Shown here: positions 1 to 10,951 of the stretch, in pieces
Layout of the letters: each line of letters begins with the position of its first letter
Position numbering within the stretch: the stretch's first letter is position 1
NCBI GenBank assembly: GCA_029100965.1
Contig: JAQXQC010000011.1
Coordinates: 1 to 42,967 of the forward strand
Source: Bacilli bacterium
Lineage (GTDB): Bacteria > Bacillota_I > Bacilli_A > RF39 > UBA660
Reading direction: 5' to 3'
DNA length: 42,967 nucleotides
The notes under the pieces: generated by a model
Told to the model about the DNA's origin: nothing
The model's database searches: none
Seen by the model: the letters and a program-made list of their open reading frames with translations, nothing else
Made by a program: the position numbers and the translations under genes

Positions 1-26
1 AGCTGAAATGAAAAAGTAAATTCCAG

Positions 27-48
27 TTTGAAAACTTAAATTCCACTT
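27..48 (+). repeat. 22-bp direct repeat, left copy
   Basis: This 22-bp sequence recurs at 1739-1760 in the same orientation with one difference (C versus G at the tenth position). The shorter motif TAAATTCCA also occurs just before it at 17-25, and again at 1722-1730 beside the right copy. The paired motifs bracket the IS30-type transposase gene. Because the copies are direct rather than inverted they are not simple IS terminal inverted repeats. Confidence 0.6.
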
Positions 49-71
49 TTTGGGGATTTTCATCTAATTTT

Positions 72-106
72 TGAGTAAAGGATATTTTCTTTTACTCATT
101 TTTATT
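72..106 (+). terminator. Terminator-like hairpin
   Basis: TGAGTAAA (72-79) pairs with TTTACTCA (91-98) across an 11-nt loop and is followed by a T-rich run. On the plus strand it would end transcripts entering from before base 1, so it faces the end of the minus-strand transposase gene. Confidence 0.45.
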
Positions 107-247
107 GTAAAATATGGCTTGTAAAGCAAATTTTGTTAAATTATTGCATGTCGAAAAGGGATCGAACTATTAAAATTTTTTTTGAAGTTCATAATTCCAT
201 CCCTAAGTTTAAAATATTTTAACTATTGATGATGCTTTATTTTTACA

Positions 248-1558
248 TTATTTTTTTAGTAAGTTCTTGGATAAACTTACTTTGTTAGGTTCAATTTTTT
301 GAATACCTAACTTTTGTACAGTGTCTTTACCGTACATTTTGCTGAATATTGAGTGTGGTGACTCGTTATTCAGTTTTTTTCTTTTATATGAATTGATATG
401 TGACATGATTAAATTGATGTCTTCTTGAGTTAAATTATCTAAAGATTCTCCTTTAGGTAAAATTCTTCTAAGGAGTTCATGATTTACTTCACAAGAACCC
501 TTTTCAAATGGACTAGATGGATGACAATAAAATATTTTTGTTCTTAATTCACCAGTATTTGAATCAAATTCAATTTTTGTTGGATTAGAAAATTCGCTAC
601 CATTATCAGTTAAAATAACAGGAAATAGTTCTTTAAATTTATCTATTTCAACTAATTTTTGAATATTATTAAAAATATCTATAACTGATTTTGAATCGTT
701 ATTTTCTCTTATATATGCTAACATAAAAGAACAATTAACAAAATGAATCGTTAATAATACTTTTCCTCCTTTAGTTCCTTCAACAGTATCCATTTGAACA
801 ATAGGATTATCGGGATTTTGTTCAATAAAAGAAATAAAATCTTCGTATCTGCGATTTTCTAAACATTTTTTATCTACTTTATAATAATTTTTATTTTGTT
901 TTCTTCTTTCACGATATCTAACTTTTCTGGGTAAATCTATATTTCTTACTTTTAAAAGTCCTAAATCTATTAGTTTGTAAATAGTTTTATCGCTATACAT
1001 AATTTTATCTTCATTATTAATAATAGCTTGATGAACAGATTGATTTTGCTCTTTTATTAGAGGAACTAAAATATTATTTAAATTGTCTATTTCTTTTTTT
1101 GTAATAGTAATCCCAGATCTAGTTTCTTTAAAATTTTCTATATAATTGTTGTATGAAATTGCACCATCATAAATATATTTGGTTAATCTACAGCTATAAT
1201 AATCTTTACAACCATTACAAACATATGGAGGTCTATTTAATTTTAAACATTTTTCTTCAATAAATTCATTACAATTTTTATTACACATTTTACAATACTT
1301 ACAATATTTATTTTGAGTTTGAATACAATATTCAGTACAGATTCTTTTCTTTAAGCAAGTATCTCTATTAATACAATTATTAACTGACTTACCTCTAGAA
1401 CCAGTTTCTTTAATTTCAATATGTTTTCTTACTTCTTTTGAAATAGTAGTACAATCCTTTTCAAGTAATAAAGCAATTTTTTTAAAAGAACTTCTACGCC
1501 ATAACTCACTTTCGATAGTTAATCTTTCTTGTAGAGTTAAATGCTTATTTTTACACAT
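248..1558 (-). CDS. IS30-family transposase
   Basis: DDE transposase that would cut and join the ends of its own insertion sequence. An N-terminal helix-turn-helix (LTLQERLTIE onward) is typical of IS30 proteins. A cysteine-rich segment at about residues 60-125 probably binds zinc, as in some clostridial IS30 members. The DDE core is visible as D257 (in IVQMDTVEG), D318 (in VILTDNGSEF) and E357 (in SPFEKGSCEVNHE), numbered from the chosen start. I start at the ATG at 1558 because an AAAGGA ribosome site lies nine bases before it; the frame stays open to 1588. The 436-aa length is slightly long for the family, owing to the Cys-rich insert. The gene looks intact. Two strong hairpins lie upstream of its start and may limit expression by read-through transcription. 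Confidence 0.92.
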   Translation of the reverse strand: MCKNKHLTLQERLTIESELWRRSSFKKIALLLEKDCTTISKEVRKHIEIKETGSRGKSVNNCINRDTCLKKRICTEYCIQTQNKYCKYCKMCNKNCNEFIEEKCLKLNRPPYVCNGCKDYYSCRLTKYIYDGAISYNNYIENFKETRSGITITKKEIDNLNNILVPLIKEQNQSVHQAIINNEDKIMYSDKTIYKLIDLGLLKVRNIDLPRKVRYRERRKQNKNYYKVDKKCLENRRYEDFISFIEQNPDNPIVQMDTVEGTKGGKVLLTIHFVNCSFMLAYIRENNDSKSVIDIFNNIQKLVEIDKFKELFPVILTDNGSEFSNPTKIEFDSNTGELRTKIFYCHPSSPFEKGSCEVNHELLRRILPKGESLDNLTQEDINLIMSHINSYKRKKLNNESPHSIFSKMYGKDTVQKLGIQKIEPNKVSLSKNLLKK

Positions 1559-1608
1559 TTTCATCATTCCTTTCCCAATAAGCATCAACTATAGTAATTG
1601 ATATTAAC

Positions 1609-1629
1609 CAACAAAGATAAACTTTGTTG
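1609..1629 (-). promoter_or_regulatory. Hairpin in the transposase leader
   Basis: Perfect 8-bp inverted repeat CAACAAAG (1609-1616) / CTTTGTTG (1622-1629) with a 5-nt loop, 50 bases upstream of the transposase start. Its position in the leader suggests control of transposase expression; this is inference. Confidence 0.45.
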
Positions 1630-1647
1630 TAAGAAATATTATAAATA

Positions 1648-1713
1648 TAAGATTATTTAAGTCAAAGGTAAAATGAATTTGCTAAAGCAAACCTATTGAC
1701 TAAAATAATCTTA
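1648..1713. repeat. Long hairpin upstream of the IS30 transposase
   Basis: An 18-base arm (1648-1665) pairs with 1696-1713 with one mismatch. Inside it, AGGT (1666-1669) pairs with ACCT (1691-1694), and TTTGC (1678-1682) pairs with GCAAA (1687-1691) around a TAAA loop. The whole 66 bases fold almost end to end. It lies between the transposase start and the right-hand 22-bp repeat. Confidence 0.6.
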
Positions 1714-1738
1714 TGAAGACTTAAATTCCATTCTTTTC

Positions 1739-1760
1739 TTTGAAAAGTTAAATTCCACTT
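1739..1760 (+). repeat. 22-bp direct repeat, right copy
   Basis: Matches 27-48 at 21 of 22 positions in the same orientation. It runs into a perfect 6-bp inverted repeat TTCCAC (1753-1758) / GGTGGAA-type arm (GTGGAA, 1765-1770). Together these probably mark the right boundary of the IS or a recombination target. Confidence 0.55.
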
Positions 1761-1846
1761 AAAGGTGGAACTTTGGATTTCATTTGAATTAATAACATTT
1801 TATACAACCACCAGTTAGAATTATATGCACCGATAGTTCGAATATG

Positions 1847-1855
1847 TGGTATAAT
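1847..1855 (+). promoter_or_regulatory. Extended -10 promoter
   Basis: TGG-TATAAT forms an extended -10 element (TGn-TATAAT), 20 bases before the start of the nuclease fusion gene. No good -35 box is visible at the usual distance. Confidence 0.45.
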
Positions 1856-1874
1856 AATAAAGAGAGGTGTTTAA

Positions 1875-3002
1875 ATGCGATATAATAATTTAAAAAGGCA
1901 TAATGCTGATTTTGTGTTAGGTGTAGTTGGAAAATGTCCTAAATGTGGGAATGATGTAGTGTTAAGAAAAACAAGTTATGGAAATTTTGAAAATTGTAGT
2001 AATTATCCACAATGTAGGTATATTGTTAAAAAAGATAATTATACTGATGAAAAGAGTAAATATAATGTTAAGAAAAATGATAAAGGACAATTAATAAATG
2101 AACTTTGTCCACAATGTGGTGGTAATTTATTATTAAACTCTAATAGAAGAGGGAAAAAATTTATAGGCTGTGAAAACTATCCTCAATGTAAGTATGGTAG
2201 GTGGTGTGATAAGAACGATGAAAATTTAGAAATCAATGATAGTAACCTATGTAATACAAAAAATAGTATTAGCAATATAAAAGAATATGATGACAAACAA
2301 TATTCTAGTAAATTTAAAAAAGGCATTCGTGATGATATAGAGCAAGATGTAATGTCTTCGTGGGAAGCAAATATAATACGTTTATTTAATTATTTAAAAA
2401 TTGAATATAAATATGAAAGCGATAGTTTTAATTTGGGTAAAAGTGAATGTGATTATAGATATGTTTCATTTTCTTATGTACCAGATTTTGTTTTAAATGA
2501 TGGTACTTTGATAGAAGTTAAAGGCAATTTAGATTATAGAAGTTTACAAAATATAAGAAGATTTAATGAATTATATCCTAATGAAAAACTTGTTATTATA
2601 GATAGCGATATATATTATTTACTAGATAAAAAGTATGGTAATATAGTTCCTAATTGGGAAAAATCTGCAACTCCTTTAACTTGTTATGTTACCGTTGTTG
2701 GAATAACTTTCAAAGAAAGAAAACAATATGTAGATAAATTAAAGGATAACGATGAAATATATCTAGTTAGAGAATTGGATAACAAATATGATAAAAATGC
2801 TATTAAAGTAGTGGATAAAGACAATAATCATTTAGGATATATTTCTGGTGATTATGCTTGTTATTATGCACCTAAAATGGATAAAGGTATTAAATATAAA
2901 TTAATAGTTAAAGAACGTAAAGAAAAAGTATTAAATTGTGCTATTAGTCCAACTAATTTAGATAGTTATGATGTTAGTGATTATTTAGATATATTTAAAT
3001 AA
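1875..3002 (+). CDS. Zinc-ribbon x2 / PD-(D/E)XK nuclease / HIRAN fusion protein
   Basis: A 375-aa protein with three recognisable parts. Two topoisomerase-type C4 zinc ribbons come first (C21/C24/C41/C47 and C78/C81/C99/C105, each with the NYPQC ending). A PD-(D/E)XK nuclease-like core follows at about 160-250, with E164, PD204 and the E214-x-K216 signature (IEVKG). A HIRAN domain fills about 270-350 (LVRELDNKYDKNAI and GYIS match its signature). HIRAN domains bind DNA ends or stalled forks, and the ribbons bind single-stranded DNA in topoisomerase I, so a nuclease acting on damaged, replicating or foreign DNA is likely. Ribosome site GAGAGGTG precedes the ATG. It sits in mobile cargo beside a small acidic gene. 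A defence role is plausible but unproven. Confidence 0.75.
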   Translation: MRYNNLKRHNADFVLGVVGKCPKCGNDVVLRKTSYGNFENCSNYPQCRYIVKKDNYTDEKSKYNVKKNDKGQLINELCPQCGGNLLLNSNRRGKKFIGCENYPQCKYGRWCDKNDENLEINDSNLCNTKNSISNIKEYDDKQYSSKFKKGIRDDIEQDVMSSWEANIIRLFNYLKIEYKYESDSFNLGKSECDYRYVSFSYVPDFVLNDGTLIEVKGNLDYRSLQNIRRFNELYPNEKLVIIDSDIYYLLDKKYGNIVPNWEKSATPLTCYVTVVGITFKERKQYVDKLKDNDEIYLVRELDNKYDKNAIKVVDKDNNHLGYISGDYACYYAPKMDKGIKYKLIVKERKEKVLNCAISPTNLDSYDVSDYLDIFK

Positions 3003-3037
3003 GTCTATATAAAAATTATAATTAGAGGTGGTAATTT

Positions 3038-3226
3038 ATGACATCAAAATTTGAAACTACAATTAATTTATATGATTTAAAGAAATTTGTTGAAGAGACA
3101 GTTGCAAAAGAACTGGAAAAAAAACAAAACAATAAATTAGATAAAGAAAATAATTCAAATAATATTAATGTTTCTTCTAATGATGATAAAATTAATGTTA
3201 ATGTCAAAAATGATTGTGAAAATTAG
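3038..3226 (+). CDS. Small Lys/Asn/Asp-rich protein
   Basis: A 62-aa protein of unknown function with a good ribosome site (AGAGGTGG, 7 bases before ATG), 35 bases after the nuclease fusion and before a shared terminator, so probably co-transcribed. Residues about 10-35 (DLKKFVEETVAKELEKKQ) would form an amphipathic helix; the rest is Asn/Asp/Lys-rich and likely disordered. The length is near the chance limit in such AT-rich DNA, but the ribosome site and position support a real gene. It could be a partner or inhibitor of the upstream nuclease; this is speculation. Confidence 0.5.
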   Translation: MTSKFETTINLYDLKKFVEETVAKELEKKQNNKLDKENNSNNINVSSNDDKINVNVKNDCEN

Positions 3227-3235
3227 ATAAAAAAG

Positions 3236-3265
3236 CAAATAGATTAAATTACTATTTGTTTTTTT
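3236..3265. terminator. Bidirectional terminator between convergent genes
   Basis: CAAATAG (3236-3242) pairs with CTATTTG (3252-3258), with a T run on the plus strand and an A run before it that gives Ts on the minus strand. It ends the nuclease/small-gene unit and also the minus-strand gene whose stop lies at 3252. Confidence 0.7.
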
Positions 3266-4190
3266 GTTGTCTACTTTTTTGTTTTCTTTGGTTTTGTCTT
3301 ATTAAATTACAATCGTTTTCTAAACAATATAGTTGTCTAAATCCAGTTCTTTTAAAACTCCTATTACAAGCAATATTTTTACATATTCCTATTGTGTCGT
3401 CATTATTATCTTTTGATAGTTGCACTTTTAATTCATATATACCTAATTTCAATGCATTATTAAAAATTATATTTGTATACCAGCATTCATTATCATCATC
3501 ATATGATGTTTCAAATGAGCAATAGTTATCAAATTTTGAGTCTAAAAAAATCAATATATTTTCTATATGTTCAAAAATGTTATAGTCATTTGGATTTGCA
3601 TAAATATAAGAAAATATTTTAGAATAATAATTCTTTCCATTTGCAAGACTTTCTCTTATGAAAAATGCCTCATATATAAAATAAGCAATCATTAGAAAAT
3701 AAACAATATTACATTCTTTAATATCTATATTATTTTCAAACATTGGTGTTGTAAAAAATCCAAAGTCGTTGATAAAAGATATTATCTCATCTAATAATAC
3801 TTTAAAGTGTTTTTTATCTTCTAAAACTAAAATAATTGAGTTTTTATATATATCAGAAAATCCATCATTTTCTTTTGGGGAAGACAGTTTTTCTTTATCA
3901 ATCAAATCATTAATTAATTTTCCTAGATTAAAAATCCTTAAAAAAACTTTATAAGAATTAATATTATTATGAATTTCTATTGTAGGTTTATATAATTTGT
4001 TTCTTTTGGATTGAATTGTAAGGTCATTATAGTAACTTATTTCATTTTCTTTTTCTTCATAATCTGGATTACATATTGTTAAATCTTCAATAGCAAATAT
4101 TTTTTCAAGATAAATTATATATATTTGATTTTTTGTTTCTTCTAATACATCTTTATTGATGTTTTTTTCTACTCTTAAATATGCTTTCAT
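3252..4190 (-). CDS. CGNR-type zinc-finger protein of unknown function
   Basis: A 312-aa soluble protein. The first 265 residues are not recognised. The C-terminal 45 residues hold a Cys pattern C-x4-C-x12-C-x4-C (CKNIACNRSF and LYCLENDC) followed by a basic Arg/Lys/Gln tail. This resembles the CGNR zinc finger found at the end of ABATE-type transcription regulators, so a DNA-binding regulator is the best guess. A ribosome site (AAGAGGT) precedes the ATG. It is divergent from the RepL-like gene at 4461, and the 270-base gap between them holds several inverted and direct repeats that could be its operators. Confidence 0.6.
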   Translation of the reverse strand: MKAYLRVEKNINKDVLEETKNQIYIIYLEKIFAIEDLTICNPDYEEKENEISYYNDLTIQSKRNKLYKPTIEIHNNINSYKVFLRIFNLGKLINDLIDKEKLSSPKENDGFSDIYKNSIILVLEDKKHFKVLLDEIISFINDFGFFTTPMFENNIDIKECNIVYFLMIAYFIYEAFFIRESLANGKNYYSKIFSYIYANPNDYNIFEHIENILIFLDSKFDNYCSFETSYDDDNECWYTNIIFNNALKLGIYELKVQLSKDNNDDTIGICKNIACNRSFKRTGFRQLYCLENDCNLIRQNQRKQKSRQQKNK

Positions 4191-4202
4191 TTTAACCTCT
4201 TT

Positions 4203-4226
4203 CTTGTGTCACAGATATTTCACAAG
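4203..4226. promoter_or_regulatory. Inverted repeat CTTGTG/CACAAG in divergent promoter region
   Basis: CTTGTG (4203-4208) and CACAAG (4221-4226) form a perfect 6-bp inverted repeat with 12-base spacing, just upstream of the minus-strand CGNR-type gene. A TATAAT on the minus strand lies about 30 bases further. It is a candidate operator. Confidence 0.35.
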
Positions 4227-4399
4227 TTAAATGTGAATATATATTTGAATTATTATATAATGCATTTGTAATTAAAGCAACAGACGTCTTAAATTTTGAT
4301 TACATATAAATATATATTGGTATTTAAAGATAAGAATACAAAAGTTGATAAAAAGCCCATAATATAAGGTTTTTACGTGATTTTATAGGTAAAGTATTA

Positions 4400-4443
4400 T
4401 TACCGATATTATTGGTATGAAAATACAGTCTTTTTACCGATAT
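4400..4443 (+). repeat. Iteron-like TTACCGATAT repeats
   Basis: TTACCGATAT occurs at 4400-4409 and again at 4434-4443, 34 bases apart. The first copy overlaps a near-palindrome TACCGATATTATTGGTA (4401-4417). They lie directly upstream of the RepL-like gene, where an operator or replication/transfer iteron would be expected. An unrelated 8-bp palindrome AGACGTCT lies at 4282-4289. Confidence 0.5.
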
Positions 4444-4460
4444 AGAAAGGAATTTGTGTT

Positions 4461-4970
4461 ATGGCTAGGTATTTATTAGATGAAACTGGTGAAGTTTTGT
4501 ATGAATTTAAAGATAATGAAAAGATTGTTATTTATGATAGTCTTAATACTAAAAGAAATATTATTAATAACAAATTATTTTATAAATTATATAAGGATTC
4601 ACTTTTAATCTTTATTAATGAACATATTAGTCAAAAAGTGTTTAAAACGCTCTTTGGATTGATTAGATTATTAGACTTTAATACTAATGAATTTGTTAGT
4701 TTTAATGGATTACCTGCCACTATTGGGCAATTGTGTAAGTATTTTAATATGACTAATAAAACCTTTTATAATCATATAAGGCAACTAGAAAAGTTAGAAA
4801 TATTAAAGAAAGTAAAAAAAGGTCGTGAAGTAAATATTTTGATAAATCCGTATTTTATTAGTTATGGCACAAAACATACGGATGAGGCTTTGAAAATATT
4901 TGCAAATACAATATGGGCTAAAAGTTCAGTTTATTCAAAGAGAAAAAGAAAAGGAGATTATAGTAAATGA
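4461..4970 (+). CDS. RepL-like winged-helix replication/regulatory protein
   Basis: A 169-aa protein with a winged-helix core at about residues 55-135: helices around VFKTLFGLIRLL, a recognition helix in TNKTFYNHIRQLEKL, and the wing ending in LINPYFISYG. This order and the NPYF-x3-G ending are those of the Firmicute RepL-type plasmid replication/maintenance family. It may control replication or copy number of the element, or simply act as a regulator. Ribosome site GAAAGGA lies nine bases before the ATG. Direct repeats TTACCGATAT lie just upstream. It overlaps the next gene by four bases (ATGA), so the two are translationally coupled. The exact role is inferred. Confidence 0.65.
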   Translation: MARYLLDETGEVLYEFKDNEKIVIYDSLNTKRNIINNKLFYKLYKDSLLIFINEHISQKVFKTLFGLIRLLDFNTNEFVSFNGLPATIGQLCKYFNMTNKTFYNHIRQLEKLEILKKVKKGREVNILINPYFISYGTKHTDEALKIFANTIWAKSSVYSKRKRKGDYSK

Positions 4971-5254
4971 GAAAGAAAAATATTAGTGTTGAATATCCGT
5001 TTATTTTACTTAGTAGGATTTTAAATAAGTATGAATGGGAAAATGGTGTTATAAGAAAAAATGGTAGTGACATTTCAGTTAATAAGATTAGAAAGGAATT
5101 AAATTTAAGTTGTTATAGAATGAATTATACACTTTCTATATTAGAGAGATTTAATGTATGTAAAGTGGTTAATAATGATGATGATAAGAAGATAATATGC
5201 TTAAACCCTAAATTCAAAAAAATAATTAAAAGAATGGAAGAGTTTTATGAGTAA
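4967..5254 (+). CDS. Small helix-turn-helix protein
   Basis: A 95-aa basic protein. ISVNKIRKELNLSCYRMNYTLSILERFNV (shown in part: IRKELNLSCYRMNYTLSILE) reads as a winged-helix DNA-binding segment, and the C-terminal half is Lys-rich. It starts inside the last codons of the RepL-like gene (ATGA overlap), 62 bases before the serine recombinase, so the three probably form one operon. Likely a regulator or accessory factor of the recombinase or replication module. No specific family recognised. Confidence 0.5.
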   Translation: MRKKNISVEYPFILLSRILNKYEWENGVIRKNGSDISVNKIRKELNLSCYRMNYTLSILERFNVCKVVNNDDDKKIICLNPKFKKIIKRMEEFYE

Positions 5255-5316
5255 GGAATTAGAAAAAAATATATTGGTTTTTATAATTAAAGTACTTTTG
5301 ATTGGAGAAGATAATA

Positions 5317-6735
5317 ATGAATAATACAGGAATATATATACGTGTTTCTAGTGACAAACAATTTTTAAAAGGTCACTCTTTAGAATGGCAAGAACATTTA
5401 TTAAAAGAGTATGCTATTAATCATAAATTAAATGTTGTTGATATTTATATTGAAAAAGGTATAAGTGGAGAAGAAATTGATAACAGAGATGAGTTGAAAA
5501 GATTATTAAAAGATATAAAAAACAAAAAAATTAATAATGTTTTAGTTTATAAGATTGATAGATTAGGAAGAAAAGTAAGTACTAATTCTATAATATGTAA
5601 AATATTAATTGATAATGATTGTACACTAACAACAAGTGATACGGGAAATGTAGAATTAAAAACGGCTTTTGGAAGTCTGTTATATAATATTCTTTCTGCA
5701 ATTTCTCAATTTGAAGTAAATTTACTTTCAGAACGCGTTATAAATGGAAAAAAACAACGTGTTAGAGATGGTTTATATATAAATTCATATAATGTATATG
5801 GATATGATAGTTATTGTAATTATGACGGCAAAAGACTATTAAAAGTTAATGATTTTGAAAAAAATATTGTTAATGATATATATAAATTATATTTAAAAGG
5901 CAAATCTATGAATAAAATTGCACAAAATTTAAATGAAAGAAAAATACCTTGTAAACGAGGTGGTAAATGGTGCCAGTCTACTATTTATCAAATTTTAACA
6001 AATAGATTGTATATTGGTATGGTTGTATATAATGGAAATGCTAAAAAAGATTGTTTTGAAAATAAAGGTATTCATCAACCTATAATAGACGAAGAATTGT
6101 TTATTAAAGTTCAAGATATGATAAAATCAAGAAAAAAGCAAAAAACAAAGAAGTGTCCAAATGAATATTCCTATTTTTCTTCATTGCTTGTATTTGAAAA
6201 TAGTACATTTAAACCTAAACAAACTAAGGCTAATGATAAAGATAGTATAAGATATTATTGTAAAGATAAAAAAAGTTGTTTTCCTAGTATAAAACATACC
6301 AAGTTAGAAGAAATATTCTCTAGTAAGTTGAGTAATTATAAATTAGAATATGATGAAAGGGTAATTGCAGATATTTTTAAGGATGATGACTATGAGATTG
6401 TTTTAGAATTACTAAACAAAATAAAAAGAGAACAAAATATGTTGTTTGATTATTATAATAACAATATAATCAAGGATGATGAGTTAAAAGATAGATTAGA
6501 ACATCTTGCCTCAAAGAAGGAAAAACTATTAAGTCAACACGAAGAATTGAAAAATAAAATTATTGATTATAATGATTATACAAAAATAAAAATATATAAT
6601 TTGATAAATAACAATTTAATGATTAATTTTAATAAATTGAGTAAAAAAGATAAAATGAATTTTGTTAATTTATTTGTAGAGAAGATTATTATTGATATTA
6701 ATCATAATATAGAAATAGTATGGAAAAAGCAATGA
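5317..6735 (+). CDS. Large serine recombinase with degraded zinc ribbon
   Basis: Resolvase/invertase-type site-specific recombinase, 472 aa. The catalytic domain spans about 1-145, with nucleophile S11 in YIRVSS and the conserved YKIDRLGR segment. The recombinase domain follows (about 150-260, including GKWCQSTIYQILTNRLYIG), then a coiled-coil region to the C-terminus. The zinc ribbon normally at about 285-340 has lost its first CxxC pair: the expected position reads LLVFENSTF, while the second half keeps YYC and SC. DNA binding may therefore be altered. I use the ATG at 5317, nine bases after GGAG, rather than the TTG at 5302. It ends inside its own terminator. It may be a second, older or specialised recombinase, since an intact one lies at the right end. 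Confidence 0.85.
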   Translation: MNNTGIYIRVSSDKQFLKGHSLEWQEHLLKEYAINHKLNVVDIYIEKGISGEEIDNRDELKRLLKDIKNKKINNVLVYKIDRLGRKVSTNSIICKILIDNDCTLTTSDTGNVELKTAFGSLLYNILSAISQFEVNLLSERVINGKKQRVRDGLYINSYNVYGYDSYCNYDGKRLLKVNDFEKNIVNDIYKLYLKGKSMNKIAQNLNERKIPCKRGGKWCQSTIYQILTNRLYIGMVVYNGNAKKDCFENKGIHQPIIDEELFIKVQDMIKSRKKQKTKKCPNEYSYFSSLLVFENSTFKPKQTKANDKDSIRYYCKDKKSCFPSIKHTKLEEIFSSKLSNYKLEYDERVIADIFKDDDYEIVLELLNKIKREQNMLFDYYNNNIIKDDELKDRLEHLASKKEKLLSQHEELKNKIIDYNDYTKIKIYNLINNNLMINFNKLSKKDKMNFVNLFVEKIIIDINHNIEIVWKKQ

Positions 6736-6757
6736 TTTACTCATTGCCTTTTATTAT
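6729..6757 (+). terminator. Terminator overlapping the recombinase stop codon
   Basis: GCAATGA (6729-6735, including the TGA stop) pairs with TCATTGC (6741-6747) across TTTAC, followed by CTTTTATTATTTT. It ends the RepL/HTH/recombinase operon and separates it from the retron unit. Confidence 0.7.
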
Positions 6758-6871
6758 TTTAGGAATAGAATATTTTAAAAAGAATTCAATCATTAATTTT
6801 TGTGTAGTACTGCTAATATTTGTGTTATTCAATATTATCACCAGTTAATAATATGAAATTAAGTAAAATTA

Positions 6872-6900
6872 TTTACTATTATTATTAAAAGTGTTATACT
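6872..6900 (+). promoter_or_regulatory. Sigma-A promoter of the retron unit
   Basis: TTTACT (6872-6877), 17-bp spacer, TATACT (6895-6900). Transcription would begin near 6907, well before the first coding start at 7168, leaving a leader of about 260 nt that is rich in hairpins. Confidence 0.6.
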
Positions 6901-6906
6901 TAATGT

Positions 6907-7160
6907 AAGTAACAAGGCTTATCGTAATTTAATCGTTGGTAGAGTTATCTACTTAATTGTATTTCAATTAGCCTTATGGCTGTCCTTAATTGGGGAGCGT
7001 CCAGTATGTATGCATCTATATATGTATATATCCAAACGTATTATCCAATTATAGTTCCATACCTACTATATATAGGTATAAGCTGGATGGCCTGTTCCGT
7101 TTAATAATCTTATTAATATGGATAAGAGGCCTCCAGAAAATATTAATATATAGAAGGAGG
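6907..7160 (+). ncRNA. Putative retron msr-msd RNA
   Basis: A 260-base gene-less, highly structured leader directly upstream of the retron operon. Visible stems are GTAGA/TCTAC (6939-6943/6948-6952, loop GTTA), AGCC/GGCT (6970-6973/6978-6981), ATACCTA/TAGGTAT (7059-7065/7073-7079), CCAG/CTGG (7001-7004/7083-7086), and a long hairpin 7084-7135 with GGCCT/AGGCC (7089-7093/7127-7131) enclosing TTCC/GGAT-type and TTAATA/TATTAA stems. Retrons carry such an RNA at this place, where it is template and primer for the msDNA. I could not find the end-pairing a1/a2 repeats or fix the branching G, so the exact ends are open. A 66-codon ORF across it is a chance frame. Confidence 0.5.
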
Positions 7161-7167
7161 CGGAAAG

Positions 7168-7404
7168 ATGAAAATCAAAGCAAAACTTAATTTAGGGTTT
7201 GAATTTGAAGTTCAAAAAAATTCAAAAAAGAAAAAAAATAATAAAAAAAGTTCTTTTTTGAAAATGTCTATGATTTGGGTTGTTTTAGAAATTTTATCAA
7301 CCTTAATAGGCTTACTTGTTACTTGGGTTATTGATACATTATCGAGCAGGCCATTCTATTTTTATGATAGGATGTTTTTATTTGGAAGAAAGGTAGTGAT
7401 TTAA
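7168..7404 (+). CDS. Small single-helix membrane protein, putative retron effector
   Basis: A 78-aa protein: a short N-terminal strand-like part, a Lys/Asn-rich stretch (about 17-29), one hydrophobic membrane helix at about 35-55 (IWVVLEILSTLIGLLVTWVI), and an aromatic/basic tail. The basic side before the helix suggests an N-in orientation. A strong ribosome site (GAAGGAGG) precedes the ATG. Its TAA stop is directly followed by the RT start codon, so the two are coupled. In several known retrons a membrane protein beside the RT is the toxic effector released when the RNA/DNA complex is disturbed (Ec48 type, two helices). This one is smaller, with one helix. The effector role is inferred from context. 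Confidence 0.6.
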   Translation: MKIKAKLNLGFEFEVQKNSKKKKNNKKSSFLKMSMIWVVLEILSTLIGLLVTWVIDTLSSRPFYFYDRMFLFGRKVVI

Positions 7405-8679
7405 ATGATTAATGATGTATCGACATCTTTAAAAGAAAAATGTAGATTACATAATTTTAATAGTAGAAAAGGAATTGCATATTTATTAGATATTCCTAAT
7501 GATGTAGATATGAAAAATTTACGTAATGAAATTTTAAAATGTTACCAATTCTTCTATATGGAAAAACCTATATATGTTAAAGAAACAAAAGAACAAAGAA
7601 TAGAAAGATATTTAAATCCTAATATATTATCAAATATATATATAGATGTTCCTGATGATTATAGTCGTGATAAATATCGAATGTTAATTGATATAAAAAA
7701 AGAAAAAAAGTGGTTAAAAAAAGTATTAAAAAAAATTAATAAACAATTGTCAAATTCTTTGATTAATAAAATTAGGAAAAGTGATAGAACAATTGAAATT
7801 AATTATGATGTTGAGTATTTACATTCTTCAGTTAGAAAGCGTTCTTATGAAACAAATGCAAAAGAGCATAAAAATGAAAAATATGTTTTAGCAATTGATA
7901 TTCAAAATTTTTATCCGTCTATAAAGGAACATAAAGTATATAGTTTTTTTAAAAGAGAAATGGGATTAGATAAAGATATTGCTACTATATATACTATTTT
8001 ATGTACTTGCCCACTTGAAGACCCAAAAGTAAAAAAAGATTTTGAATTTGGGATTGGTCAAGGATTAGCGACAAGTCCAATTTTGGCTTATATGATTAAT
8101 TATCGTATGTTTAATTATATTTATGATAAAGCAAGAAAATATGGCCTAAAAATGACTGTATATGTTGATGACATAGTTTTTAGTAGTGATGAGCCTATTC
8201 CACAAGAATTTATAAATGCATTATTCTCAATTATTAAACAAAATGGAATGAATATAAAAAGAAAAAAAGTTCATTTATTTGATAAAAAACAACTAAAAAA
8301 GATAACTGGTGTTATTTTAACAAGTACTAATAAAGTTAGAGTTGACAAATCTAAACACGAAGAATTAGTTTATCAATATGACTATTTAAATAAAAATATT
8401 TTGAATATTAATAATATAAATGAATATTTTGATATATATAATCTTTTTTTGAAATTTAATGGTAATGCTCAATTTGTTAATTTAGTGGAAGGTTATCTTT
8501 TACCAAAGTATGAAAAATTTATAAAAGATTATAAGGATTATTTTCCTAATGGTATAAAGAAAACTAAAAAGAGAGAAGTGTATAAAAAAGATAATTTGGA
8601 TGATGATAGTTATAAAGAAATTTTAAAATATTATGAAAAAATCAGAAAATATATAGATACCAAAAAAGAGATTAAATAA
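7405..8679 (+). CDS. Retron-type reverse transcriptase
   Basis: A 424-aa RNA-directed DNA polymerase. Hallmarks seen: NAKEH at 151-155 (the retron-specific NAxxH), catalytic D164 in AIDIQNFYPSI, QGLATSP at 219-225, the YVDD box at 253-256, and ITG at 300-302 (the retron VTG position used in recognising its own RNA). An N-terminal extension of about 100 residues precedes the RT fold, and a basic tail of about 70 follows the thumb. It would copy part of the structured RNA upstream into msDNA. The start codon abuts the stop of the small membrane gene, and GGTAGTGA serves as ribosome site. The 3' end lies inside a terminator shared with the convergent recombinase gene. An intact-looking, complete gene. 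Confidence 0.88.
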   Translation: MINDVSTSLKEKCRLHNFNSRKGIAYLLDIPNDVDMKNLRNEILKCYQFFYMEKPIYVKETKEQRIERYLNPNILSNIYIDVPDDYSRDKYRMLIDIKKEKKWLKKVLKKINKQLSNSLINKIRKSDRTIEINYDVEYLHSSVRKRSYETNAKEHKNEKYVLAIDIQNFYPSIKEHKVYSFFKREMGLDKDIATIYTILCTCPLEDPKVKKDFEFGIGQGLATSPILAYMINYRMFNYIYDKARKYGLKMTVYVDDIVFSSDEPIPQEFINALFSIIKQNGMNIKRKKVHLFDKKQLKKITGVILTSTNKVRVDKSKHEELVYQYDYLNKNILNINNINEYFDIYNLFLKFNGNAQFVNLVEGYLLPKYEKFIKDYKDYFPNGIKKTKKREVYKKDNLDDDSYKEILKYYEKIRKYIDTKKEIK

Positions 8680-8697
8680 AACTAATCTCTTTTATTA
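8664..8697. terminator. Shared terminator inside two convergent gene ends
   Basis: AAAAGAGATTA (8664-8674) and TAATCTCTTTT (8683-8693) form a perfect 11-bp stem with an 8-nt loop. The RT gene (stop ending 8679) and the recombinase gene (stop at 8672-8674) overlap by eight bases within it, so one hairpin ends both transcripts. Confidence 0.75.
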
Positions 8698-10117
8698 TGG
8701 CTTTGCCGTCTATGACATCTAAATCAATTTTTTTAATGAATTGTGTTATAAAATTATTTCTTTCGTTAGTGTCTAAATAGTCCCAGTTCTTTTTTATGTT
8801 TGTTATGATGTCTTGGATATCATTAATATTAATTTCTTCTTCTAGTGGCTCTTTTATGTCTTTTAATGTGTTATTTAAAAATTGTCTTTTATCTTCAATA
8901 ATTTTAATCATATCTTGATAGTCACTGCTTGTTATTTTTTCACTAATAAATAGTGATTGTAGGTTTTTACGTTTAACTTCTAGTTTTTCTAGTTCTTTTA
9001 ATATATTTTCTTGCTTTTTAGCATTATTCTTTTTAGGTTTAATTTCTTTTAAAGGTTCTAATGTAATATTCTCTATATACTTTTCAAATTCATTTAATAC
9101 TTTAATATGAGATATACCACAACAATCACATCTTGATAGTTGTTTGTTATTACAATAGTAAGTTATATAATAAGTGTCACAATTTTCTTTTTTAGACATT
9201 TTAGAGTGGAATTTAGCCCCACATTTATGACATCTTAAAGCCGTTGTAAAATATGCTCTTTCACTAGGGTATTTTTTATTATTAAAATGTTTTCTTCTTT
9301 CCATAACTTGTTGTGTCTTATAAAACTTATCTTCGTCTATAATTGTTTCTTGTGTTCCGTCAACATTAAATGCTTTGTTTTGATTTTTCTTTCCAACACC
9401 ATATCTTATTTTCCCTATATATAGTGGGTTAGTTAGTATTGATTTAATAGTTGCTTGTGACCAGTAACCACCTCTTTTAGTAGGGACTTGCTCTTGATTG
9501 AATTTTTTTGCTATTTTTAACATTGATGTACCCTCTAAATATAAATCAAAAATTCTATTAACAATATCTTTTTCAACTTCATTGACTACAAGTTCACCAG
9601 TTCCTACAATATAATCATAGCCGTTGACACCATTTGTATTAGTGTAGTTGCCTTCACGTGTTTTTTGTTCGTAGCCAAAACTAACACGTTCTGCAAGGTT
9701 TTCACGTTCAAATTCTGCAAATATACCTATAATCTTAATAAACATTCTACCGACGGCATTTGATGTGTCTAATTTTTCGGTGACTGAATTAAAACTACAA
9801 TTATGCTCTTCAAATAGTTCAATAAGATTAATTAAATCTTTAACACTTCTTGTTAGTCTATCAAGTTTATAAATAAGTACATTATTGACTTTGCCACTTT
9901 TAACATCTTCTATAAGACGATTAACACTGGGTCTATCAGTTATATTTTTGCCACTTATTCCGTCGTCAATATAGAAGTCGTAAATCTCCCAGTCATTAAT
10001 ATTAGCATAACTTGTTAGTTTTTCTTTTTGGGCATTAATACTAAATCCCTCTTTTGCTTGTTCCTCTGTTGATACTCTTAAATATATTCCCGTTCTTAAA
10101 ATTTCATTTTCTACCAT
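8672..10117 (-). CDS. Large serine recombinase (probable integrase of the element)
   Basis: A complete 481-aa site-specific recombinase. Catalytic domain about 1-150 with nucleophile S16 in YLRVSTEEQ, DGISGKN and YKLDRLTR; the recombinase DNA-binding domain at about 165-270 (RGGYWSQATIKSILTNPLYIG); an intact zinc ribbon (RCHKCGAKF, then YYC and CDCC) at about 295-335; and a long coiled coil behind it. This is the architecture of phage and transposon large serine integrases that act between attP and attB. It starts 200 bases from the broken carboxypeptidase gene and reads toward the element interior, as expected for the integrase that made the junction. Excision by this family normally needs a directionality factor; none is recognised here, though the small HTH proteins are candidates. 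Confidence 0.92.
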   Translation of the reverse strand: MVENEILRTGIYLRVSTEEQAKEGFSINAQKEKLTSYANINDWEIYDFYIDDGISGKNITDRPSVNRLIEDVKSGKVNNVLIYKLDRLTRSVKDLINLIELFEEHNCSFNSVTEKLDTSNAVGRMFIKIIGIFAEFERENLAERVSFGYEQKTREGNYTNTNGVNGYDYIVGTGELVVNEVEKDIVNRIFDLYLEGTSMLKIAKKFNQEQVPTKRGGYWSQATIKSILTNPLYIGKIRYGVGKKNQNKAFNVDGTQETIIDEDKFYKTQQVMERRKHFNNKKYPSERAYFTTALRCHKCGAKFHSKMSKKENCDTYYITYYCNNKQLSRCDCCGISHIKVLNEFEKYIENITLEPLKEIKPKKNNAKKQENILKELEKLEVKRKNLQSLFISEKITSSDYQDMIKIIEDKRQFLNNTLKDIKEPLEEEININDIQDIITNIKKNWDYLDTNERNNFITQFIKKIDLDVIDGKAIIKEISFI

Positions 10118-10280
10118 AATATCACTTCCTCATTTTCTTATTAAGTGTGATACCTATATCATTATTATTTAGTGTTATTATGATTGCCGTTCTTTTGTTT
10201 ATCGGCTGTTATAGGATAATAGTTTTGATTGTAGTGTGTTAATATCTTATACCTAATCAAATATAATAATGTAAAGAATA

Positions 10281-10336
10281 TCACATACATTAAAGACTAT
10301 GTTTAATAGTCAAATTTAATGCTTTATTCACATACA
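10281..10336. other. Candidate attachment site at the element/dacF junction
   Basis: Between the recombinase start and the first carboxypeptidase-like codons there are a perfect inverted repeat GACTAT (10295-10300) / ATAGTC (10306-10311) around GTTTA, wider AT-rich flanks that continue the symmetry, and a 9-bp direct repeat TCACATACA at 10281-10289 and 10328-10336. The second copy covers the point where protein homology resumes. Large serine integrases cross over at the centre of imperfect inverted repeats of 40-60 bp, so one of these is probably the attR or attL core. The exact crossover dinucleotide cannot be fixed without the other junction. Confidence 0.45.
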
Positions 10337-10855
10337 ATCAAATTAGTTCGTTATTATCAAGGAGTAGATGGTTTAAAGACAGGGTATACAAAAAATGCAG
10401 GGTATTGTATTACGACAACTGCCGAAAGAGGAAATATGAGATTAATTACTGTTGTAATGGGAGAACCATCATCAGCAATTCGAAATAGTGAAACAACAAC
10501 CATGTTAGATTATGGATTTAATACTTATGAAGCAAAAGAAATTATCACAAAAGATAGTGTGATTTCTAAACAGAAAGTAGAATTTGGTAAAAAAGATAGT
10601 GTAGAATTAACTCCAATGGAAGACTATAAAGTTTTAAAAGAGAAATCTAGTACGAATAAGAATGTTACTTATCAATTATCTAGTAATCCAATAAAAGCCC
10701 CCGTTAAAATAGGAGATAAAGTAGGAAAAATAAAGATTATAGAGAATAATAAAACAATTCAAGAAATCGATGTAACAGTAAAAGAAAATATTAGTAAGAT
10801 GAATATTCTTAAAGCTTATTATAAAGAATTAATAGGAATGATTAAAGGAAACTAA
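10319..10855 (+). CDS. C-terminal part of a DacF-like D-Ala-D-Ala carboxypeptidase (interrupted gene)
   Basis: The frame begins in the middle of a low-molecular-weight PBP. KLVRYYQGVDGLKTGYT carries the third active-site box (K20-T21-G22), followed by the rest of the transpeptidase fold to about residue 85 and the beta-rich C-terminal domain (about 90-165), and a short amphipathic C-terminal helix that would anchor it to the membrane. The SxxK and SxN boxes, about 200 residues, are absent, and an in-frame TAG lies at 10307-10309, so this piece cannot be active alone. No clear ribosome site precedes the first ATG. It lies just before spoIIGA. An uninterrupted copy would trim stem peptides in cell-wall or spore cortex peptidoglycan. 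Either a decaying pseudogene or half of a gene restored by excision. Confidence 0.85.
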   Translation: MLYSHTIKLVRYYQGVDGLKTGYTKNAGYCITTTAERGNMRLITVVMGEPSSAIRNSETTTMLDYGFNTYEAKEIITKDSVISKQKVEFGKKDSVELTPMEDYKVLKEKSSTNKNVTYQLSSNPIKAPVKIGDKVGKIKIIENNKTIQEIDVTVKENISKMNILKAYYKELIGMIKGN

Positions 10856-10859
10856 ATTT

Positions 10860-10897
10860 GATAAAAGAAAAATAATACAACTTTTATCAATTTTTTT
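10860..10897 (+). terminator. Terminator after the dacF fragment
   Basis: GATAAAAG (10860-10867) pairs with CTTTTATC (10881-10888), followed by a T run. It separates the carboxypeptidase transcript from spoIIGA-sigE. Confidence 0.75.
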
Positions 10898-10918
10898 CTT
10901 TGGAATATTAAACACAAA

Positions 10919-10951
10919 TTGACATATTATTTAAAAAAAACTTTTTATAAT
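10919..10951 (+). promoter_or_regulatory. Candidate Spo0A-type spoIIG promoter with long spacer
   Basis: TTGACA (10919-10924) and TATAAT (10946-10951) are both perfect sigma-A boxes but 21 bp apart. The Bacillus subtilis spoIIG promoter is known for an unusual 22-bp spacer and dependence on Spo0A. Transcription would start at about 10958, so the leader before ATG 10968 is very short. I do not see a perfect 0A box. Confidence 0.45.

Follow-up and report, generated by a model that had tools for sequence, protein, structure and literature searches.

Site-specific large serine integrases with a target inside a coding sequence are a known kind of system. The text of PMC10083194 describes diverse large serine recombinases that share one conserved coding-sequence site, and the account in PMC10747680 names sigK, spsM, spoVFB, gerE and yabG as interrupted sporulation genes. 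The stretch analyzed here, contig C11 of a 1.37-Mb assembly from a Bacilli bacterium (93 contigs; estimated contamination 4.67%), is referred to as the window (42,967 nt). It very probably contains attR, one of the two hybrid attachment sites of an integrated element, formed when a 481-aa integrase joined the attP site of the circular element, with core dinucleotide AA, to an attB site in a D-Ala-D-Ala carboxypeptidase gene. The site lies in the conserved NTNK codons of that gene. This carboxypeptidase target is new to us: no paper in the literature searched contained both 'dacF' and 'serine integrase', 'dacF' did not occur among the papers listed by a broader search, nor did 'D-alanyl-D-alanine carboxypeptidase' among those listed by another.

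The locus resembles the described systems to different degrees. As with the recombinases of PMC10083194, diverse integrases use one target gene and site, the gene is disrupted, and the sites are centred on a core dinucleotide; the words 'carboxypeptidase' and 'dacF' are absent from the main text of that paper. The gin element in gerE of Bacillus cereus, as described in PMC5595907, is likewise non-phage, carries several serine recombinases (three, against two here), splits a gene and restores its frame by precise excision. It differs in its size (28.6 kb), in its gerE target and in that its excision during sporulation was demonstrated experimentally, whereas restoration of the frame here is predicted from the joined sequences. 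According to the passages of PMC10747680 consulted, skin (sigK), SPbeta (spsM), vfbin (spoVFB) and yin (yabG) are also inserted in sporulation-linked genes, but their target genes are others and they are prophage-like, and a sporulation role of the carboxypeptidase here is only a candidate. The closest named NCBIfam models to the integrase are CcrB (NF047343) and XisF (NF041201), which match over most of the protein (E 2.2e-59 and 3.1e-47) at scores far under their curated cut-offs (201.6 of 900 bits and 161.6 of 375). The attP of A118-type Listeria phage integrases, in the part of PMC3783163 consulted, has about 25 bp per half-site around a central dinucleotide, as here, although its sequence differs; the same source describes a 5-bp shift of the zinc-domain motif in attB.

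The junction is bracketed by a recombinase gene on one side and the C-terminal half (C half) of the split carboxypeptidase gene on the other, as the initial annotation had stated (Table 1). The 481-aa enzyme combines an N-terminal Resolvase domain with a Recombinase domain in a protein of at least about 450 aa, the mark of a large serine integrase; its zinc-ribbon match (E 3.2e-4, 21.5 bits) lies below the Pfam cut-off of 25.3. DNA similarity to an intact relative restarts at position 10332. A Peptidase_S11 search of the assembly gave four matches, of which contig C86 covers profile positions 8-207 and the window 166-238, the remaining two (C35 and C41) spanning nearly the whole domain. C86 (locus L006, 3970 bp) carries amino-acid ABC transporter genes, the N-terminal half (N half) of the carboxypeptidase gene (1880-2563), two small genes with helix-turn-helix (HTH) matches and a small open reading frame (ORF). 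Its final 141 bp are identical to window positions 1-141, and the IS30-family transposase gene lies just inward of this repeat; read from that neighbour, the sequence at which the contigs break is probably a multi-copy insertion sequence. If C86 joins the window directly, the element would be about 11.6 kb long by arithmetic.

The opposite junction, which the initial annotation had proposed to seek, was thus located on the contig holding the N half. Aligning the two junctions was expected to expose a core dinucleotide and half-sites, and it yielded a shared AA and symmetric attP arms. The claim of a serine-integrase att junction in the split carboxypeptidase gene stood as well, with the two gene halves on two contigs and the junctions aligning in frame. 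The junction was real, but the boundaries drawn for it (10281-10336) and the symmetry named were not supported; attR has the approximate limits and the centre given in Table 1.

The junctions were paired first by reading frame and subsequently by the dyad. The in-frame sequences are ...AATACAAATAA|AGTTGTATATTAAG for attL and ...TTCACATACAATCAA|ATTAGTTCG for attR. When the element ends were joined to form attP, the best of 39 centres was AA (window 10340-10341, L006 2549-2550). The arms of this attP are symmetric at 19 of 24 positions, and none of 2000 dinucleotide shuffles was as good at any centre. For L073, L077 and L079, three loci of other genomes, the cores were placed by reading frame before the symmetry test. 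Symmetry was again best at AA in L073 (18/24; 5 of 2000 shuffles as good at any centre), L077 (19/24; 1 of 2000) and L079 (16/24). In a fifth element, in G274, attP is symmetric at 20 of 24 positions at an AA core; here the attR core was taken as the most symmetric of 55 positions, landed on the same codon position, and had no shuffle control. All five elements with both ends known therefore have their best attP symmetry at the AA core, and the identity of attL and attR through the core that is common to the window, L073, L077 and L079 is AA alone. By alignment, the attB core dinucleotide is the same as that of attP. Inverted half-sites that flank a 2-bp core within an attP of about 50 bp are the arrangement of a large serine integrase site. 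Plain junction identity was rejected as pairing evidence, as the 10-12-base words common to C86 and window 10100-10500 look like chance. In the proposed mechanism, a circular element with this attP would recombine with attB in the NTNK codons through the 481-aa enzyme, which presumably performs strand exchange at AA. The insertion would split the gene, leaving the N half with attL on C86 and the C half with attR in the window; excision would be expected to need a directionality factor, and the element may transfer between cells.

Table 1. Features of the window around the predicted attachment site and within the element
Feature	Position	Strand	Basis and remarks
attR	10316..10365	none	P arm 10316-10339, core AA 10340-10341, B' arm 10342-10365; 24 bp per arm as scored; dyad, in-frame alignment with attL, same site in other loci
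Large serine integrase, 481 aa	8672..10117	-	Pfam Resolvase 3.4e-41, Recombinase 3.5e-25
Carboxypeptidase C-terminal-half ORF	10319..10855	+	Host-derived from about 10340; Peptidase_S11 profile 196-238 and PBP5_C
Element sequence within the window	1..10339	none	Junction at 10340; 141-bp overlap with C86; rest of element and attL (core L006 2549-2550) on C86
Second large serine recombinase, 477 aa	5302..6735	+	Pfam Resolvase and Recombinase; long branch
Reverse transcriptase like type VI retron reverse transcriptase (cargo)	7405..8679	+	PADLOC RT_VI 2.6e-53
IS30-family transposase	248..1588	-	NCBIfam IS30, 101 bits, cut-off 80
Zinc-ribbon/HIRAN protein (cargo)	1875..3002	+	Pfam
Inverted repeat GACTAT-GTTTA-ATAGTC	10295..10311	none	GACTAT 10295-10300, ATAGTC 10306-10311; outside the att arms; near chance
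First TCACATACA copy	10281..10289	none	Outside the att arms
Second TCACATACA copy	10328..10336	none	Inside the P arm

Comparison with other genomes provides further evidence. In 13 further loci a related integrase (49-70% identity) adjoins half of a carboxypeptidase gene, broken at these same codons. This gives 14 distinct loci including the window, plus G334, after removal of duplicates (L074 = G031 contig 70 by length and coordinates; L077 = G071 and L078 = G161 by shared 60-mers). A profile search of genome contigs with a two-sequence alignment was used to select the best 80 of 500 relatives; eight of these 80 (L073-L080) have a carboxypeptidase half beside the integrase, and the other 72 have none in the stretch examined. 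A single-protein scan of the genome contigs and two scans of viral contigs returned no relatives. At a threshold of E 1e-90, the family search recovered the integrase from 10 of 291 genomes (the source genome included), eight of them at the carboxypeptidase. A second family search, with the L073 integrase as query, recovered 9 of 386 at E 1e-100 (the source genome included), all nine at the carboxypeptidase and one, G700, new. The class search gave four of 395: the source genome, G139, G064 (without a carboxypeptidase) and G334, which belongs to another family. G334 has a C half only, which begins at the same AATAAG codons; its integrase lies about 770 bp off and reads towards this half; no N half was found up to the contig end. 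Among intact relatives, the NTNK codons were recognized by pattern in 28 of 29 (30 loci, one being the source genome's own; L045 was unmatched), and the gene is intact in G002 and G006, both of the same genus. Across many genera of one bacterial family, and probably in one genome of another, the integrases have a single conserved target within a coding sequence. A guessed att site has become an attP/attB pair with defined limits and a predicted core of AA, backed by 14 loci; the predicted pair is directly testable and could serve as a site-specific integration tool.

The elements at this site differ in size and apparently in content. Among L073, L075, L080 and L162, identity is 96.5-99.8% over the 1748 bp inside the core and 66-73% over about 600 bp of gene outside it, which indicates that the elements moved horizontally, recently, to one fixed site. 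Where both ends are known, sizes are about 9.5 kb (L073), 6.8 kb (L077), 3.2 kb (L079) and 41.7 kb (G274), and the cargo appears different among L073, L077 and L079. The 41.7-kb element, on contig G274:C13 (L163 from 9533, L192, and L193 to 12352), holds a 2041-aa ORF. The window and L079 have the integrase on the C-half side, and in the 12 remaining loci that possess an N half it is on the N-half side; in all of these it reads away from the core.

A second large serine recombinase, 34% identical to the 481-aa integrase, lies in the same element and has the same catalytic domains, and it might have made the insertion instead. It is very improbable that it did: in the other loci, it is relatives of the 481-aa enzyme that adjoin the carboxypeptidase junction, and the second recombinase is placed away from the junction and on a long branch (2.82). 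In a tree built without it, one branch separates the 14 carboxypeptidase-associated integrases from the rest with support 76/68, and 13 of them without G334 with support 94/89; none of 500 label shuffles came out as low. With the second recombinase included, two changes are needed; G700 is in neither tree. A single origin of the site-specific integrases is only moderately supported.

Several observations weigh against integration by the 481-aa enzyme at the NTNK codons. The symmetry of the L079 attP was equalled at some centre by 165 of 2000 shuffles, and in the joined attB sites symmetry does not peak at the core. By a half-site profile derived from other elements, which discriminates weakly, the P arm ranks sixth among half-sites of the whole window and attR 32nd among full sites, the latter because attR is half P and half B; the best full site (10.6 bits, at 1079) is not the junction. 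No carboxypeptidase was found in the 19.9 kb examined of G064 and G310, nor in 15 kb of G014, whose integrase is 53% identical over 268 aa. The join between C86 and the window rests on a repeat, as the same 141 bp also occur at the ends of contigs C71 and C69, making four contig ends in all. Positions 1-1800 of C86, which hold the transporter genes, are 94.7-99.3% identical to G002 per 150-bp bin, whereas long matches of other window DNA to G002 reach 74-76%.

Together with the contamination estimated for the assembly, this identity would fit a C86 that comes from another species in the bin; the attL described would then belong to a sister copy of the element, and the attR would still be right. 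We consider this origin unlikely. Identity to G002 drops to about 70% at the start of the carboxypeptidase gene, and the N half stands at 85%, the C half at 72%; at the protein level the two halves (82/66%) show the same slope as other pairs, such as G002-G006 (75/53%); and the Peptidase_S11 search found a single N half and a single C half in the assembly. The transporter block was probably exchanged recently between species, contamination being the possible alternative. The attR sits on a single contig and its placement is independent of C86. The symmetry argument for the window depends on C86; in L073, L077, L079 and G274 a single contig holds both ends and yields the same argument.

The nested repeats that had drawn attention to the region proved to be a different matter from the junction. 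The letters are as first described: a perfect GACTAT/ATAGTC inverted repeat around GTTTA, and two copies of the 9-bp direct repeat TCACATACA. The second copy had been said to sit where carboxypeptidase homology resumes, and the restart of DNA similarity does fall inside it. The palindrome lies between the integrase and the gene, and 195 of 200 shuffles of its 27-nt hairpin fold less well than the hairpin itself, the other five matching it, so GACTAT and ATAGTC could conceivably be the half-sites of the att site. This is extremely improbable. A 6-bp inverted repeat with a loop of 3-8 nt occurs in 66% of dinucleotide shuffles of 10118-10400, and the whole window has 207 such repeats against 198 +/- 18 expected, near chance. 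The repeat also lies outside attR, the half-site profile from other elements gives nothing above 3 bits anywhere in 10270-10339, and the symmetric centre and the junction both fall at 10340 instead. In L079, the closest relative, the integrase start codon is only 37 bp from the core, which leaves no room beyond the P arm for a counterpart. The 81-nt stretch around the hairpin is not outstanding, 15 of 200 shuffles folding as well. A 9-bp direct repeat within 60 bp is present in 12% of shuffles of 10118-10400, and in the whole window 121 were counted against 37 expected. At the repeats no terminator was found, and promoter-like matches are as numerous as in shuffles; a search of 6500-10600 against Rfam gave no match up to E 1.

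At the other end of the element, the P' arm makes up the 5' strand of a stable hairpin in L006 2561-2611, with a T-rich run behind it; the fold has -13.8 kcal/mol and z -3.4, a value that none of 200 shuffles reached. The structure is possibly a terminator just inside the element; a pattern scan listed none there.

The insertion separates conserved motifs of the carboxypeptidase. The gene belongs to the Peptidase_S11 family, all NCBIfam matches of the N half being below cut-off; dacF, the name used in the initial annotation, is a candidate assignment. SMTK and SGN are in the N half, which ends three codons past the core, and KTG and PBP5_C are in the C half. These three motifs are taken here to form the active site together, and their separation would be expected to abolish enzyme activity. 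The joined frame encodes 394 aa without a stop and, over residues 4-393, shares 75% identity with the G002 gene; excision would make the frame whole again. In L074 (near 4718-4745), the N half has become shorter ahead of the attL core, with which it is not in frame, and that genome yielded no matching C half; the gene thus looks permanently lost. A cell-wall carboxypeptidase thereby joins the genes split by mobile elements, and the decayed L074 copy suggests that it can be lost for good.

Genes resembling sporulation loci flank the carboxypeptidase in some genomes. In the window it is followed by spoIIGA- and sigE-like genes, and in L077 by spoIIAA/sigF-like genes (named by eye and used as queries). 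Both gene halves are open reading frames in the window/C86, L073, L077 and L079. These features would fit an element of the skin, SPbeta or gin type, which interrupts a sporulation gene and leaves it in a programmed way as the cell sporulates. The chance of this appears small, since such neighbours are not the rule: among 46 loci scanned, with short flanks, matches to both spoIIAA and sigF were found in L077 and L055 only, and to spoIIGA in none. The SpoIIGA and SigE matches of the window are below curated cut-offs, the L074 gene has decayed as described, and the integrase ORF of L079 is just 268 aa long. The spoIIGA-like gene begins 95 bp past the carboxypeptidase in the window (10855-10950), and in G002:C3 the two are about 9 kb apart.

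Some elements carry a second attP-like dyad between the att core and the integrase gene. In L073 (853-930; near-copies in L075, L080 and L162) it has an AG core and lies 56 bp inside attL, and none of 400 shuffles of L073 equalled it with either of two models. A dyad in L076 near 9708, with a GG core 57 bp inside attL, was equalled by 0 of 400 shuffles with a 24-column model and by 224 of 400 with a 13-column model. Weaker best dyads occur at +64 to +66 in L078 (18 of 400 shuffles), L077 (42) and L164 (70), and the best one on the integrase side in the window, 49 bp inside the core, was matched by 77 of 400. The clustering of second dyads in elements related to each other is suggestive only. 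A mismatched-core second site in L073-type elements hints at self-control of the integrase, and none was found described in the portions consulted of the literature searched on this theme. In a joint reading, the integrase clade would be specialized on NTNK codons near sporulation genes, with insertion as a reversible switch, the AG-core dyad as a recombination-dead self-control site and the repeats at 10281-10311 as its decayed counterpart; this combination is quite unlikely.

The reverse transcriptase and the HTH genes of the element are probable defence cargo. No relaxase or conjugation families were found among the nine of its window ORFs that were scanned (Pfam), the three small ORFs on C86 having been scanned against PADLOC only; the window ORFs scanned thus lack the relaxase or conjugation genes of its own that an integrative conjugative or mobilizable element would carry. 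A small ORF without a family match (7168-7404) precedes the reverse transcriptase. On C86, L006 3550-3807 and 2977-3222 match HTH_VI (2.5e-12 and 1.7e-9), and other HTH models match them too. In another genome, the second Peptidase_S11 gene of G031 (G031:C44; L069 2099-4623 and 10991-11227) appears to be split by about 8 kb, so that another carboxypeptidase gene appears to be targeted there. The intervening DNA encodes a 544-aa serine recombinase ORF together with radical-SAM-like and other metabolic-looking ORFs, as judged by eye.
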